NCBI GenBank assembly: GCA_011620345.1 | Contig: WOZJ01000009.1 | Span: 1 to 6,575, forward strand | DNA: 6,575 bases | DNA from: Nitrospirota bacterium | GTDB taxonomy: Bacteria > UBA2233 | Direction of reading: 5' to 3' | Part shown: positions 186 through 6,575 of the stretch, piece by piece | How positions within the stretch are numbered: the stretch's first letter is position 1 | How the letters are laid out: each line of letters begins with the position of its first letter | Made by a program: the position numbers and the translations under genes | The notes under the pieces: generated by a model | Database searches by the model: none | What the model saw: the letters and a program-made list of their open reading frames with translations, nothing else | Told to the model about the DNA's origin: nothing

Positions 186-1802
186 TTATACGATTCCGCT
201 CAGGTAGCGATCTCGCAGGATCCTCTTGGAAAACTTTCCCACAGATGTTTTTGGAATCTCGCTGACGAAATAAAACGCTCCAGGAATCCAGAAGCTTGCC
301 ACGCGATCTTTTAAGAAGCTTGCGAGCTCTTCTTTGGTCAGGCTCCCTTGAAAGCCCTTTCGTGCGACTATGTAGGCAACGGGACACTCCCCCCATTTTT
401 CGTCCGGCACACCGATGACGCACGCCTCGGCGACTTTTGGGTGGGCCATGAGCGTGTTTTCCAAATCGAGGGAAGAAACCCACTCTCCGCCCGACTTGAT
501 GAGGTCTCGTTCCCTATCGACTATGAGAATGTAGCCTTCTTCGTCCACCGTGACGATATCCTGCGTCCGGAACCAACCGTCCGCAGTAAAGCTTGCCTTG
601 GTCATCTCGGGGTCCTTGAAGTATTCTTTCGCAATCCATGGCCCTCGAAACTGTAGCTCGCCGATCTCTTTGCCGTTCCATGCGATTTCTTTGCCGTCCG
701 GCCCGACGACGCGGAAATCCACGCCAAAAAGAGGGAGCCCTTGCTTGGCCTTGATGCTCAAAAGCTCATCGTAGGGAAGCTCTCTAAGGCCGCTCTTAAT
801 CCAGCCCACCGTCACGATCGGAGAGGTCTCCGTCATCCCATAGCCTTGCATGATGGGTACGCCGATCTTTTTTTCGAACGTTTCGATCAGGGCCTTTGGA
901 ATAGCCGCCCCGCCGTTCACAATGACCCGGAGCGAGGAAACGTCGTGCCGCTCGTTCAAAAGCGTATCGGCCATGCCCACCCATACCGTTGGCAGGCCGG
1001 CCACTGTCGTGACTCGTTCGGCCTCGATCAGCTCCACGAGGTCTTTGGGTGTAGGCTTAGGGCCCGGCAGGACGATATTGGCGCCGACCCCCACTGCGGC
1101 GAACGGGATCCCCCAGCCATTCACGTGGAACATGGGGACGACGGGCATGACCACGTCCGACTCCGAGAGCCCGGCCGAGTCCACCATTCCGGTGGCCATC
1201 GAGTGCAGGAAAAGCCCCCTGTGCGTGTAAATCACCCCTTTGGGGTTGCCCGACGTGGCCGTCGTGTAGCACAGCCCGCAGGGCGTCCACTCGGAGAGGT
1301 CCTGCCTTGGTTCGATGGGTCCTGCCGTTTCAAGCAGCGTCTCGTAGTTGAGAGCGCCCTCCAAGTCTTCCGGAACCGCATTCTCTTTTTCGGCCAATAC
1401 GACGAACCGCTCCACGTTGGGCAGTTTGTCTATGAAGGGCTTGAGCAAGGGCAAGATATCGTCCCCCACGAAAATCACCTTGTCTTCGGCGTGATTGATA
1501 ATGTAGGCGAGCTGGTCGGGGAACAGTCGGAGGTTGATCGTATGGAGGATGGCGCCAAGCATGGGTACGGCGAAGTAAATCTCCAGGTGCCTGAAGTCGT
1601 TCCAGGCGAACGTCCCGACAACATCGCCCTCCTTTACTCCCATGCCTTTGAGCGCCCCCATCAAACGAAGCACCCGCCCGGCGAAATCGGCGTAAGTATA
1701 CCGGAAGACCCCTTCAAGCGTCCTGCTCGCGATTTGTTTTTTGGCAAAGAGCTTCCGGCCGCGATTAAACAAATGACTCAAAAGCAACGGGTACTCCATC
1801 AT
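186..1802 (-). CDS. AMP-forming medium/long-chain fatty acyl-CoA ligase (AlkK-like)
   Basis: A 538-residue cytoplasmic enzyme of the ANL superfamily. It should activate a carboxylic acid with ATP to an acyl-adenylate and then form the CoA thioester. Length is normal for AlkK-like ligases. Visible motifs are the P-loop region [11 protein letters not shown] (179-189), MFHVNGWG (224-231), the A5 motif QGYGMTET (319-326), the A7 motif GWFRTQD (409-415), the A8 hinge [20 protein letters not shown] (429-448) and the A10 motif [11 protein letters not shown] with the adenylation lysine at 523. The SGGEW hinge is typical of the AlkK/fatty-acyl group. Two motifs deviate: the P-loop has TTATSG where TSGTTG is usual, and A7 has TQD for TGD. 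The ATG at 1802 is preceded by GGGAGGA (1810-1816) with 7-nt spacing; a second ATG follows immediately. It is transcribed divergently from scoAB. Chain length or an aromatic substrate cannot be told from sequence alone. Confidence 0.93.
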
Positions 1803-2314: not shown

Positions 2315-3010
2315 ATGAACAAGGTTTACAGCACGGCTGCCGAGGCTATCGCCGACATCCCGGACGAGGCGACGATCATGGTCGGGGGGTTTGGCCTCTG
2401 CGGCATCCCCGAGAACCTGATTTTGGCGCTCCACGACAAAGGCGTCAAAGGCCTCACCGTCATCTCGAACAACTGCGGCGTCGACGACTTCGGCCTTGGC
2501 ATCCTGCTTCAGGCCCGCCAGATCAAGAAAATGGTCTCAAGCTACGTCGGGGAAAACAAAGAGTTCGAGCGCCAGTACCTCTCTGGCGAGCTGGAGCTCG
2601 AGTTCAACCCTCAAGGCACGCTGGCAGAACGCATCCGGGCCGGAGGGGCGGGCATTCCCGCGTTCTTCGTGCCCGCCGGTACGGGCACGATCCTTGCCCA
2701 AGACAAGGAAACAAGGGCGTTTGAAGGCAAAGAGCACGTGATGGAGACGGCCCTCAAGGCCGACTTCGCGCTCGTCAAGGCGTTCAAGGGCGATAAGGAG
2801 GGCAACCTGATCTACAAGAAGGCGGCCAGGAACTTCAATCCCATGATGGCCGCGGCGGCAAGGGTGACGATCGCCGAGGTGGAGGAGCTCGTAGAAATCG
2901 GCGAGCTCGACCCGGACTTCATCCACACGCCGGGCATTTATGTCCGGCGGATTCTTAAGGGCGAGCGCTACGAGAAACGGATCGAGAGGAGGACCCTAAG
3001 GTGCGCTTAA
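2315..3010 (+). CDS. scoA: Succinyl-CoA:3-oxoacid CoA-transferase, subunit A
   Basis: A 231-residue class I CoA-transferase alpha subunit. With ScoB it moves CoA between succinyl-CoA and a 3-oxoacid such as acetoacetate, in the cytoplasm. The glycine-rich motif [13 protein letters not shown] (24-36) is the hallmark of SCOT-type A subunits. It is followed by [35 protein letters not shown], the turn FVPAGTGT and the tail ending [13 protein letters not shown]. As recalled, these blocks match the N-terminal half of mitochondrial SCOT (OXCT1) closely, which favours SCOT over AtoDA- or PcaIJ-type enzymes. Length is usual for the family. The ATG at 2315 has a modest AGGG (2301-2304) 10 nt upstream. 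The stop overlaps the scoB start by 10 nt, indicating translational coupling. In this setting it would use succinyl-CoA to activate a ketoacid, or recover CoA from acetoacetyl-CoA. Confidence 0.94.
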
Positions 3011-3654
3011 CGCGCGAGGGGATCGCCAAAAGGGCGGCCAAGGAGCTTAAAGACGGGATGTACGTAAACCTTGGGATCGGCATTCCTACGCTCGTTGCCA
3101 ACTTTATCCCCCCGGGCATGAAGGTCATGCTCCACTCTGAAAACGGCGTGCTAGGTGTCGGCCCTTATCCCACAGAAGGCGAGCTCGACCCGGACTTGAT
3201 CAACGCCGGCAAAGAAACCATCACGGTCGTTTTGGGGGCGAGCTTTTTTGACAGCGCCGAGTCGTTTGCGATGATTCGAGGTGGCCACGTTGACCTCGCT
3301 ATGCTTGGCGCGATGGAGGTCTCTAAAGACGGCGATTTGGCCAACTGGATGATCCCTAAAAAGATGGTCAAGGGGATGGGCGGGGCCATGGATTTGGTCC
3401 ACGGGGCCAAACGCCTGATCGTTTTGATGGAGCATGCAAGCAAGGACGGTATGCCAAAGATTCTGAACTCCTGCGCGCTCCCTTTGACGGGCAAAAAGGT
3501 TGTGCATGCGATCATCACGGACATGGCCACTATCGAGATCACGGCCGAGGGGCTTGTGCTGAAAGAACTGGCCGAGGGAGTGAGCCTTGAAGAAGTGCAA
3601 GCGCTTACCGAACCAAGGCTTATCGTTCAAGGCGAGATCGGCAAGATGGCTTAA
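3001..3654 (+). CDS. scoB: Succinyl-CoA:3-oxoacid CoA-transferase, subunit B
   Basis: A 217-residue beta subunit of the same class I CoA-transferase, which completes the heteromeric enzyme. The catalytic glutamate that forms the glutamyl-CoA thioester is Glu47 in [13 protein letters not shown]. Other SCOT-B blocks are [15 protein letters not shown] (21-35), [30 protein letters not shown] (positions only approximate), [18 protein letters not shown] and [14 protein letters not shown]-like [14 protein letters not shown]. The chain ends in [20 protein letters not shown] and a [14 protein letters not shown] helix, as in the family. It starts at GTG 3001 inside the scoA 3' end; the AGGAGG-like bases of the scoA codons just upstream (GAGAGGAGGA) act as its ribosome-binding site. 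The length is complete and no key residue is missing. A strong terminator follows, so scoAB appears to be a two-gene transcript. Confidence 0.95.
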
Positions 3655-3746: not shown

Positions 3747-4754
3747 CTACCCCTTGGCGGCGCCTTCTTTCTTTTCCCTGGCCAGGAACCTTGCCAGCCG
3801 ATCGAGCTTGAAGATCGTGACGAACTCGATGTTCTTGCTGATCCAGAGCTTTCTTTTAACGATGGCGTCCGTGATGGCGCCTTTGTAGTTGAGTCCGTCC
3901 AAAAGCACGCGAATGTCTTCTGTCGCCATCACGAAATCCGAGCTCTTAGGCCTTCCTTTTTCAAGCCATATCCGCCCGTTGTCGATGATCAGCCCAAACT
4001 CTACGGCAGGCGTCTTGACGGCGATCGTTCGCTTCCAGTTTTCGATCGCTTTGCTCGCCCTTTTGGAGGCGTTCATTTCTTTGAGCAGCGACTCTAGCTC
4101 TACAAGCGCCCCTTGGGAGACCCGCTTGGCCTCCTCGGTCGCCTGGCCGAGGTCGGGCTCTTTTACGGCCGCCCAGTTAAGCTCGCTCGTCAAAAGCCCT
4201 GGTTTTTGAACCTGCTCCGGGGTGAGCTCGGATGTGGGTACGCCAAAGATGTCGGAGATTTGGCCGGTGCGCTCGTCTTGAAAGACAACCTTGATCTCTG
4301 TCCCCTTTTTCATGATGCCGGGCGTCAAGATCCCCGTGGTTGTGTAGAGCATGATCGAAAGGGCCGTGTCCGCGCCCTCCAACACCACCCGTCCCCGGCC
4401 GAACGGTGCCTTGTCCAAAAACATCGAGGTGGCGAAGTACGTGATCGGAGGGGTGGAAAGAAGCTTGCCCGTTTGGCCGACTTCGATGGGCTCGGTAGGG
4501 GCGAAGGCGCAGTCCGGGCAGTGGGTAAGCATAGGGGGGCAGCGCACGATCCCACAGGCGCTGCACCGGCACCCCAAAATCTTTTTCTCGTCCCTCAACG
4601 CCATGAAAAACTGCGAGAATTCGCCCATGCTCCGCTCGTAGAACGTGTACATCGCATCGTTCATGAGCAAGTAGTCTTTGCCCTCCAGCCGCAAGGTTCG
4701 CGAGGCCTCGATGGGTATGTAACTCTCCGGGATGACTTTTTTTCTTTGCTCCAT
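3747..4754 (-). CDS. DUF35 zinc-ribbon/OB-fold protein fused to an SCP2 sterol-carrier domain
   Basis: A 335-residue cytoplasmic protein with two recognisable parts. An N-terminal helical lead (to about residue 58) precedes a zinc ribbon with Cys64, Cys67, Cys79 and Cys82 (CSAC...CPDC) and the PP motif between the pairs. A beta-rich OB-fold region follows (about 90-172). Together these are DUF35 (ChsH2/BbsA type), the obligate partner of many thiolase-fold enzymes, in which it contacts the acyl-CoA. A charged helical linker (about 178-240) leads to an SCP2-like domain (about 225-325) containing VEFGLIIDNGRIWLEKG and ATEDIRVLLDGLNYKGAITD, a fold that binds acyl chains or sterols. DUF35 proteins are usually 130-150 residues long, so the fusion is unusual. 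The gene lies 22 nt after the thiolase-fold gene. The start is Met at 4754, with GAGGAG upstream; the open frame extends to 4895, but those codons are antisense-like overlap with the upstream gene. The SCP2 assignment is less certain than DUF35. Confidence 0.85.
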   Translation of the reverse strand: MEQRKKVIPESYIPIEASRTLRLEGKDYLLMNDAMYTFYERSMGEFSQFFMALRDEKKILGCRCSACGIVRCPPMLTHCPDCAFAPTEPIEVGQTGKLLSTPPITYFATSMFLDKAPFGRGRVVLEGADTALSIMLYTTTGILTPGIMKKGTEIKVVFQDERTGQISDIFGVPTSELTPEQVQKPGLLTSELNWAAVKEPDLGQATEEAKRVSQGALVELESLLKEMNASKRASKAIENWKRTIAVKTPAVEFGLIIDNGRIWLEKGRPKSSDFVMATEDIRVLLDGLNYKGAITDAIVKRKLWISKNIEFVTIFKLDRLARFLAREKKEGAAKG

Positions 4755-4776: not shown

Positions 4777-5997
4777 TTAGTCCTCGTGTTCCAGGATAGC
4801 CACGCCGCCGTACTGGCAGATCGTCGAGCCTGTCCCGTGGACGAGCGCCCTGTGCTTGCCCTTGTCGATGAGCTCGTTGCGCGCGGCCCAGGCACTCATG
4901 ATGTTGGAAGCGCCGACCGCGTGTCCACAGTAAAGAAGCCCTCCTGAAGGGTTGACGCTGATCGGACCGCCGTCTAGCATGAGGCCGTCATCTATCAGCG
5001 CATCCGCCCTGCCCATCGGGACGAACCCCATCTCGGCCATCGAAATCTCGAGCTGCTGAATGAAGGCGTCGTGGAGTTCTATCACCTGAATTTCCTTGGC
5101 AGGGTCCGTGATGCCAGCCATCTCGTAGGCCTGCTGGGCGGCCACGTGATGCGAGTAGATCCTGCCCCAGTGGTTCATGCCCTTTCCTGCGAAGCTCCAT
5201 TCGTTGGAAAGCCCCACGCCCGTGATCCAAACGACGGGACGGCCCGTGTTCTTGGCGATCGCCTTGGCGGTCTCTTCCTCGGCCAGGATAAGGGCGGCCG
5301 CGCCCTCCGAGTACACGCAGATCTCCATCTCCTTCAAAGGGTAGACGATGTAGCGGGAGTTCAACACTTCCTCCGGCGTAACCTGGTCGAACTGACGCTG
5401 GGCGTAGGGGTTCGTCTTGACGTGCTCAGAAAGCACGCTCGAGATTTTGGCCGTCACTTCGGGCTTCAAATCACCGGGATGCTCGTCCATGTAGGCCAAG
5501 ATGACCTCGGCGTAGCTGTCCGAAGCCGTCCAGCCGATCTTTTGCTCGAAGAACGAATCGCCCGACCAGGCGATCGTCTTGATCACCTCGGGTGTGGCCG
5601 AGCGCGAGACAAAGTCGTAGCAGTCGGTCGCCTTCTCGACGCCGAGCACCAGGGCGGTGTCGTACATGCCGGATGCGACGAACGCGAACGCCGAGGCGAT
5701 CGTGTAGATTCCGGTCGCCCCGCCGTTCGTCACCCGGATGCCCGGCTTGTTGGGCAACCCGATGATGCCCTGCAAGGGGTGTTCTGGAATGGCGGCCCGC
5801 TCGAAGATGTCGTTGTAGATGCCGTAAGCGACGGCGTCCACCTCGGCAGGCGAAATCCCGGCGTCTTTCAGGGCATCGCGCGTCGCCCACTGGGCAAGGT
5901 CATAGAAGGTTTTTTCTACCCACCGGCCTTTGAACGGCGTTACAGACGCCCCGACAATTCCTACTTTCCTCGCGGCGAACGACTTCTTCTTGGCCAT
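4777..5997 (-). CDS. Thiolase-superfamily protein (SCP-x/lipid-transfer type) lacking the nucleophilic cysteine
   Basis: A 406-residue protein with the two-lobed thiolase fold. Visible blocks are VGIVGASVTPF (12-22), an EVDAVAYG turn (52-59), RVTNGGATGIYT (88-99), VYSEGAAALILAEEE (228-242), IELHDAF (306-312), NPSGGLLYCGHAVGAS (349-364) and a GTGSTICQYGG tail (388-398). HDAF, with His309, and GHAVGA, with His359, are the SCP-x/lipid-transfer versions of the thiolase active-site loops. The usual nucleophile in N-x-C-S/A-T/S-G is replaced by Gly93 (codon GGG, 5719-5721), so a covalent acyl-cysteine intermediate is not possible at that site. In the DUF35-partnered aldolase Ltp2 the thiolase fold catalyses retro-aldol cleavage without thiolase chemistry; a C-C lyase or CoA-binding role is therefore as likely as thiolysis. 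It is cotranscribed with the DUF35-SCP2 gene, its likely partner. The ATG at 5997 is preferred over a GTG at 6003 on ribosome-binding-site spacing. Confidence 0.9.
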   Translation of the reverse strand: MAKKKSFAARKVGIVGASVTPFKGRWVEKTFYDLAQWATRDALKDAGISPAEVDAVAYGIYNDIFERAAIPEHPLQGIIGLPNKPGIRVTNGGATGIYTIASAFAFVASGMYDTALVLGVEKATDCYDFVSRSATPEVIKTIAWSGDSFFEQKIGWTASDSYAEVILAYMDEHPGDLKPEVTAKISSVLSEHVKTNPYAQRQFDQVTPEEVLNSRYIVYPLKEMEICVYSEGAAALILAEEETAKAIAKNTGRPVVWITGVGLSNEWSFAGKGMNHWGRIYSHHVAAQQAYEMAGITDPAKEIQVIELHDAFIQQLEISMAEMGFVPMGRADALIDDGLMLDGGPISVNPSGGLLYCGHAVGASNIMSAWAARNELIDKGKHRALVHGTGSTICQYGGVAILEHED

Positions 5998-6002
5998 TGG
6001 CA

Positions 6003-6008
6003 CCCCTC
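6003..6008 (-). promoter_or_regulatory. Ribosome-binding site that sets the thiolase-fold start
   Basis: GAGGGG on the minus strand ends 5 nt before the ATG at 5997. The alternative GTG (6001-6003) would overlap this site, so the ATG is favoured. Beyond it, positions 6009-6208 are AT-richer and hold no convincing gene or clear minus-strand promoter. Confidence 0.55.
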
Positions 6009-6272: not shown

Positions 6273-6467
6273 ATGCGCCCCAAGCCCCGCATTGTTCCAT
6301 GCCAGATCGTTGTAGTGGTTGGGTTTTTCCTGGCGATGGCCGGTCTAGGAACTATAAAACCAGGTTACGCTAAAGAAATTCCGATCAAATTAGGTTCGCT
6401 GGCTCCTGCCGGTACGTCCGTCGCCGTGGCCGTAGGGACGTTTTTGGACGGGCTAAAGACTTTCTAA
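6273..6467 (+). pseudogene. Truncated TRAP-type periplasmic solute-binding protein (DctP family), N-terminus only
   Basis: Sixty-four codons encode a Sec-type signal peptide: basic MRPKPR, a hydrophobic core IVVVVGFFLAMAGLG and a likely cleavage site after GYA (residue 33). The mature start KEIPIKLGSLAPAGTS resembles the first beta strand of DctP/TRAP receptors, which normally run to about 330 residues. The frame then meets TAA at 6465-6467, and none of the three plus-strand frames beyond continues with a recognisable DctP sequence. A different coding start follows 14 nt later. This suggests a deletion or recombination that removed some 90% of the receptor but left its promoter, ribosome-binding site (GAGGA at 6261-6265, 7-nt spacing) and leader. 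A genuine short exported peptide cannot be excluded. An in-frame start at 6201 lies over the promoter and is not favoured. Confidence 0.65.
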
Positions 6468-6481
6468 GGGCTTCAAGCCAC

Positions 6482-6575
6482 ATGAGCGAAATCAAAAAAC
6501 TCTTTGGGACAAAGGAGGATATCAAAACCAGGGCCCAGGAGTGGCTTTCCTACATCGAGAGCAAAAAATACAAGG
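6482..6575 (+). CDS. Start of an unidentified protein, cut by the window edge
   Basis: An ATG at 6482 opens a frame of 31 codons that is still open at the window end. The peptide MSEIKKLFGTKEDIKTRAQE and the following WLSYIESKKYK are charged, helix-prone and cytoplasmic in character, with no signal peptide. A weak AAGGG (6466-6470) lies 11 nt upstream, at the end of the DctP stub, so the two may share a transcript from the promoter at 6209. The family is not recognised from so short a piece. Confidence 0.55.
   Translation, partial: MSEIKKLFGTKEDIKTRAQEWLSYIESKKYK

Follow-up and report, generated by a model that had tools for sequence, protein, structure and literature searches.

The window analysed here, that is, the whole stretch of 6,575 nucleotides at positions 1-6,575 of contig WOZJ01000009.1 (GCA_011620345.1, Nitrospirota bacterium), carries a gene for a thiolase-fold protein without catalytic Cys and, starting 22 bases downstream of it, the gene of a partner protein, together with both subunits of a 3-oxoacid CoA-transferase and an AMP-forming acyl-CoA ligase (Table 1). 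The open reading frame of the thiolase-fold gene spans 4777-6003 (-), with a GTG at 6003 as an alternative start upstream of the ATG used here. Its product matched Pfam Thiolase_N, Thiolase_C and Thiolase_C_1, all above their cut-offs, and naming by NCBIfam returned 27 families at E <= 0.001, none of them above cut-off among the best 25 of the 27. At 6273-6575 (+) lies the remnant of a TRAP transporter solute-binding (DctP) gene, consisting of its first ~65 codons, a stop and its last ~30 codons with the middle gone, and the intact 481-aa DctP gene is present in the sister genome (G001:C53:21837-23282), adjoining a tandem paralog. Between the ligase and the CoA-transferase (1850-2310) there is no credible intact gene, and this may be a degraded one.

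Table 1. Genes of the window and active-site positions of the thiolase-fold protein.
Feature	Position	Strand	Evidence and remarks
AMP-forming acyl-CoA ligase	186..1802	-	PRK06187, 572.6 bits; link to the pair not conserved
3-oxoacid CoA-transferase subunit A	2315..3010	+	TIGR02429, 284.7 bits (cut-off 128.5)
3-oxoacid CoA-transferase subunit B	3001..3654	+	TIGR02428, 331 bits (cut-off 243.55)
Partner, DUF35 with C-terminal SCP2 domain	3747..4754	-	335 aa; zf-ChsH2/SCP2 scans, Foldseek
Thiolase-fold protein without catalytic Cys	4777..5997	-	406 aa from ATG at 5997-5995
His359 of GHAVGA	4921..4923	-	aligns with Ltp2 Tyr344 and Sal Gln352
His309 of HDAF	5071..5073	-	aligns with Ltp2 Tyr294 and Sal Tyr302
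Tyr229 (CVYSEG), candidate catalytic residue	5311..5313	-	conservation; inference
Gly93 codon, nucleophile position	5719..5721	-	GGG coding, CCC on + strand; RVTNGGATGIY
Tyr61-Asn62 (GIYND), candidate catalytic or substrate residues	5812..5817	-	conservation; inference

In pairwise phmmer alignments, the nucleophilic Cys of 6ESQ, 6HSJ, 7YVY and BbsB falls on Gly93 of the window protein, and an 84-row alignment gives the same placing at the nucleophile position of SCP2-type thiolases, bearing out the original prediction that a glycine occupies this site. Furthermore, Ala311 (HDAF) stands where SCP2 thiolases carry their second Cys (HDCF), and Gly388 (GTG) takes the place of the Cys of the thiolase CxG motif. 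With His309 and His359 retained, every Cys of the thiolase mechanism is thus gone while both catalytic His are kept.

The same site recurs throughout the family, which we divided into a core of 21 orthologs (48-99% identity) and a sister clade of 15 members (40-43% identity). Gly93 is found in 21/21 core orthologs and in 15/15 sister-clade sequences, and is therefore neither a product of chance nor a sequencing error; Gly93, His309, Ala311 and His359 are together invariant in all 36 aligned members from several phyla, which indicates a site under selection and not one in decay. The further claims that both His are retained and that the gene is intact, free of general decay, are supported as well, the two His being present in 36/36 sequences. 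Judging from these alignments, the loss of Cys is real and is the mark of a family more than a one-off. One genome scan gave 25 loci at 48-99% identity, labelled Nitrospirae, Chloroflexi, Rokubacteria, Acidobacteria, Deltaproteobacteria, Myxococcales, Schekmanbacteria, Elusimicrobia, Firmicutes and Actinomycetes, and the best match stood far above the other thiolases in 19/19 genomes. The sister clade is present in 9/9 genomes of a second phylum (f21). In the Chloroflexota the family is rare (2/301 genomes at E 1e-60, one of the two being the genome used as centre), and the plasmid matches are distant relatives only, at ~28-33% identity among the matches listed. Three orthologs (L059:5998-7175, L051 and L052) are broken over at least two frames, through frameshift or metagenome assembly error.

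Beyond these four residues, Asp310 is invariant across phyla, and Tyr61, Asn62 and Tyr229 are invariant in the core and the sister clade and occur in almost none of the Cys thiolases. The loop corresponding to Tyr61-Asn62 lines the pocket in the steroid aldolase Sal (PMC12329534). By their conservation, Tyr61, Asn62 and Tyr229 would be better catalytic candidates than Tyr356, which had been proposed as an Ltp2-like catalytic Tyr; that proposal fails, for Tyr356 aligns with Gly341 of Ltp2 and gives way to Phe in 7/21 orthologs and to Gly in the sister clade. Cys357 and Cys394, named beforehand as residues that might turn out to fill the nucleophile role, both vary as well, the orthologs having C, G or S at 357 and mostly Ala at 394.

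AlphaFold2, run on the family alignment, gave a model with pLDDT 81.8 and pTM 0.87, in which the loop 127-156 is of low confidence. Gly93 is predicted to lie just before helix 95-108, where thiolases carry their nucleophile. In VIA-align the model superposed on 6ESQ_A with Z 50.2 (rmsd 2.3 over 377 residues), on BbsB with Z 46.0, on Ltp2 with Z 43.0 and on Sal with Z 42.8; on the model's evidence all of these are clear thiolase folds, and the rank of their Z values says nothing on function.

Which of these relatives, then, does the protein most resemble in its active site? In Sal (Comamonas testosteroni, 9MYR), a Gly replaces the thiolase Cys and the enzyme is incapable of thiolysis (PMC12329534). 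Alignment with 9MYR and with Ltp2 (Thermomonospora curvata, 6OK1) puts the Gly of both enzymes at the position of Gly93, and both share with the window protein the thiolase fold and a DUF35 partner, the latter with a zinc ribbon and an OB fold in Sal and with a C4 zinc ribbon in Ltp2. We built a residue map from the alignments of an own-genome paralog to 9MYR and 6OK1 and from the 84-row alignment. According to this map, G93/H309/A311/H359 of the window protein would correspond to Gly/Y294/H296/Y344 in Ltp2, to Gly/Y302/C304/Q352 in Sal and to C/H/C/H in SCP2 thiolase, so that both Ltp2 tyrosines are His in the window protein. The Tyr base of the Y-D-[HC]-[FY] motif is accordingly absent, all members having His309-Asp-Ala-Phe, and so is the general acid of Ltp2 (Tyr344) or of Sal (Cys304), with His359 and Ala311 in their places. 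BbsAB (benzoylsuccinyl-CoA thiolase, 7PXP) resembles the window protein in having a DUF35 partner, HDAF without the second Cys and the GH motif; unlike it, BbsB retains the nucleophilic Cys and is a real thiolase despite its HDAF. The nearest solved fold, 6ESQ (the acetoacetyl-CoA thiolase of the archaeal HMG-CoA synthase complex), likewise has a DUF35 partner but retains Cys at both the nucleophile and the HDCF positions.

In the IQ-TREE tree of all columns a single branch (96/92) sets the Gly-types, including Sal and Ltp2, apart from proteins of the Cys, Ser and Pro types, with one Ala protein (L091) nested among the Gly-types. When the active-site columns were taken out, this split remained at 89/78 and was present in 91% of bootstrap trees. 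Given this single Gly/Cys split, the sequences suggest that the Gly-type proteins lost their Cys once, which is likely, not certain. The window clade and its sister clade join at 99/95, and Sal, Ltp2, 4U4E and the own-genome paralog form a branch of their own (100/99) with the window protein outside. The kinship with the DUF35-associated aldolase Ltp2 that had been suggested is therefore supported, and extends to Sal, by the same Gly and by the tree grouping; in its sequence, the window protein is neither a Sal nor an Ltp2. The glycine itself had been presented as unusual; it has been published for Sal (PMC12329534) and is common, in the 84-row alignment, to several large uncharacterised groups.

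Some other members of this assemblage deserve mention. The own-genome paralog (L001:739-1944 (+)) is a second Cys-less thiolase-fold protein, with GGATY, YDAF and GHTG, and is a candidate aldolase in the Sal/Ltp2 branch. On the Cys side of the tree, 4YZO (Sulfolobus tokodaii ST0096), L023, L026 and L019 form a small branch with Ser or Pro at the nucleophile position and His-His kept. Tandem pairs of two differing Cys-less thiolase-like proteins were seen at L111:10841-13671, L082, L081, L009, L016 and L087, several with a DUF35 gene nearby; one partner is of a Gly/Tyr/Asn type, the other has an altered or missing nucleophile loop, and from their sequences these pairs look like heterodimers.

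Wherever an ortholog locus had enough flanking sequence, a relative of the partner gene adjoined the thiolase-fold gene. When the partner was scanned by Pfam as a long ORF with its N-terminal overhang, no match was obtained; permissive scans from the partner ATG and of the whole family detected zf-ChsH2 in 18/18 members and SCP2 in 8/18, with weak scores. Foldseek with the partner model returned first the DUF35 domains of Ltp2-ChsH2 and of Sal-Shy, then SCP2 proteins, and from the scans and Foldseek together we take the partner to be a DUF35 fused to SCP2. The DUF35 portion consists of a C4 zinc ribbon (C64/C67/C79/C82, the four Cys invariant) and an OB fold, and in the sister clade the corresponding portion is DUF35 alone. 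This architecture differs from that of the known complexes, since in Sal the DUF35 is fused to a MaoC hydratase and in Ltp2 it belongs to the hydratase subunit. The enoyl-CoA hydratase expected by analogy with Sal and Ltp2 is neither fused to the pair nor conserved beside it, and no MaoC hydratase gene is conserved there.

The gene neighbourhood links the pair to acetoacetate. In at least five lineages its neighbours include genes for acetoacetate activation, coding for 3-oxoacid CoA-transferase or acetoacetate-CoA ligase, and often an acyl-CoA dehydrogenase as well. In the f21 phylum (L114, L118) the genes run ACAD-GlyThl-DUF35-ScoA-ScoB, all on the same strand and with junctions that are tight or overlap. 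Downstream of the pair in L045 and L046 come an acyl-CoA dehydrogenase and an acetoacetate-CoA ligase, identified in L045 by NCBIfam. In L039 ligase and CoA-transferase are both nearby, and a CoA-transferase is found near the pair in the window, in its sister genome and in L040. According to the genome count, the subunit A gene of the window is the only scoA copy found in its genome. The sole genomic scoA lies within ~9 kb of the Gly-thiolase gene in six genomes (G000, G001, G021, G378, G379 and G383), as does the sole acetoacetate-CoA ligase in three (G062, G066 and G067), and 10/19 genomes are without such a link (e.g., G061, G063, G065 and G384). Treating the five lineages as independent at 1% each, the binomial probability is ~1e-6 to 1e-7, a rough figure because acyl-CoA genes cluster anyway. 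Elsewhere in the window genome, contig C63 (L136:2473-12324 (-)) carries a cluster of acyl-CoA ligase, enoyl-CoA hydratase, carboxyltransferase, biotin carboxylase and acyl-CoA dehydrogenase, which resembles a leucine/isovalerate-type cluster without HMG-CoA lyase and would fit an isovalerate-type route.

What may be inferred from this about the reaction, the catalytic bases and the substrate of the Gly-His-Ala-His enzyme? Because the Cys is always Gly, this Gly is common to the steroid aldolases and the neighbours often activate acetoacetate, the enzyme probably cleaves a C-C bond by a cysteine-free route. On balance we lean towards the view, in keeping with the retro-aldolase or C-C lyase suggested at the outset, that it is the thiolase-fold subunit of a DUF35-type complex and splits C-C bonds of acyl-CoA substrates non-covalently, most likely by retro-aldol cleavage of a 3-hydroxyacyl-CoA, in the light of the four residues invariant in 36/36 sequences, the Gly as in Sal and Ltp2, the tree, the partner and the gene linkage. 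Sal and Ltp2 are both proven aldolases with DUF35 partners (PMC12329534 for Sal). The CoA thioester would bind as in thiolases. The 3-hydroxyl may give up its proton to His309 or to one of the invariant tyrosines Tyr229 and Tyr61, and the backbone NH of Gly93 could hold its oxygen, a role already proposed for the corresponding Gly in Sal and Ltp2. Breakage of the C2-C3 bond would follow, the acyl-CoA enolate being received in a His309/His359 oxyanion hole inherited from thiolases and then protonated, to give acetyl-CoA (or a 2-alkyl homologue) and a free carbonyl compound. The neighbours suggest that this compound, or a closely related acid, may be a 3-oxoacid such as acetoacetate, which the adjacent CoA-transferase or ligase would activate. 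The pocket would be closed by the DUF35-SCP2 partner, which may also offer a lipid-like acyl-CoA to the enzyme. Several observations run against a lyase: His takes the place of the Tyr base on which Sal and Ltp2 depend; the enoyl-CoA hydratase, which provides the step before the aldolase in steroid pathways, has no conserved counterpart in or beside the pair; the model lies nearer to Cys thiolases than to Ltp2 or Sal, and the sequence falls outside the Sal/Ltp2 clade; the Gly branch has moderate support without the active-site columns; and the acetoacetate link is missing in about half of the genomes.

A more specific and rather doubtful form of this proposal is a job like that of HMG-CoA lyase, in which 3-hydroxy-3-methylglutaryl-CoA (or 3-hydroxy-3-alkylglutaryl-CoA) would be split into acetyl-CoA and free acetoacetate (or another 3-oxoacid), to be activated by the neighbouring CoA-transferase or acetoacetate-CoA ligase. 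It is suggested by the linkage, in several lineages, to what is the genome's sole gene for acetoacetate activation, by the acyl-CoA dehydrogenase in the operon, by the HMG-CoA lyase model having no match in 14/14 close core genomes (it matched in 4/7 more distant ones), and by the separate ligase/ACAD/carboxylase/hydratase cluster of the window genome. The sister phylum (f21) apparently has propionyl-type carboxylases only, by carboxylase counts, which speaks against it as regards the source of HMG-CoA. HMG-CoA lyase is a metal-dependent TIM barrel of a fold unrelated to thiolases. Being without sequence relation to the window protein, it would be a functional analogue only, sharing the kind of reaction (retro-aldol to acetyl-CoA and acetoacetate) if the acetoacetate hypothesis holds.

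Other chemistries were weighed against the C-C lyase. Cys-less ketosynthases decarboxylate malonyl thioesters, and the present site is similar to theirs in having two His without a nucleophile. A decarboxylase that stabilises the enolate of an alpha-carboxyacyl-CoA and releases CO2 would accordingly suit the two conserved His and the lack of Cys, and a Cys-less relative, TbSLP, is cited in PMC12329534 as decarboxylating malonyl-CoA, very slowly; CtSal, a Gly-type relative, shows no malonyl-CoA decarboxylation (PMC12329534), and as the link to acetoacetate activation would be left unexplained, we regard this function as improbable. We give no better chance to an enzyme forming C-C bonds, in which an aldol or direct Claisen reaction, with no acyl-enzyme involved and fed by acetoacetate activation, would join an acetyl- or acyl-CoA enolate to a ketone or thioester: one site can serve both the lyase and the synthase direction, but 6ESQ, the synthetic DUF35 member, retains its Cys, and the ACAD and CoA-transferase/ligase neighbours look degradative. 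Somewhat less probable again is an inactive thiolase homologue, serving as CoA-binding scaffold or regulator for DUF35-SCP2 and the neighbouring enzymes; all thiolase Cys positions are indeed lost, but the fold is kept (AlphaFold2, VIA-align) and both His, Asp310, Tyr61, Asn62 and Tyr229 are invariant across phyla, which is unusual for a dead site. A thiolase with another nucleophile (Cys357, Cys394, Cys126 or Cys227) is highly improbable, given that Cys357 and Cys394 are variable, that Cys126, invariant in the core, is Asn in many sister-clade members, and that Cys227, invariant in the family, is also common in Cys thiolases already having their own nucleophile and is thus probably structural.

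That Gly can stand at the nucleophile position is already known from Sal and Ltp2, and our literature search for thiolase-like, DUF35-associated proteins lacking the Cys brought up nothing nearer than the Sal work; a Gly-His-Ala-His site, a DUF35-SCP2 partner and a link to acetoacetate were not found described in searchable papers. Among the thiolase-fold enzymes that lack Cys and are bound to DUF35, of which the ones characterised so far are steroid aldolases, the family thereby represents a third active-site solution, and it ties this enzyme type to the acetoacetate metabolism of bacterial phyla that have been little studied. Should the protein indeed be a C-C lyase, the database names thiolase and acetyl-CoA acetyltransferase would give the wrong reaction for such proteins, and the chemistry of these enzymes would reach far wider than steroid degradation.
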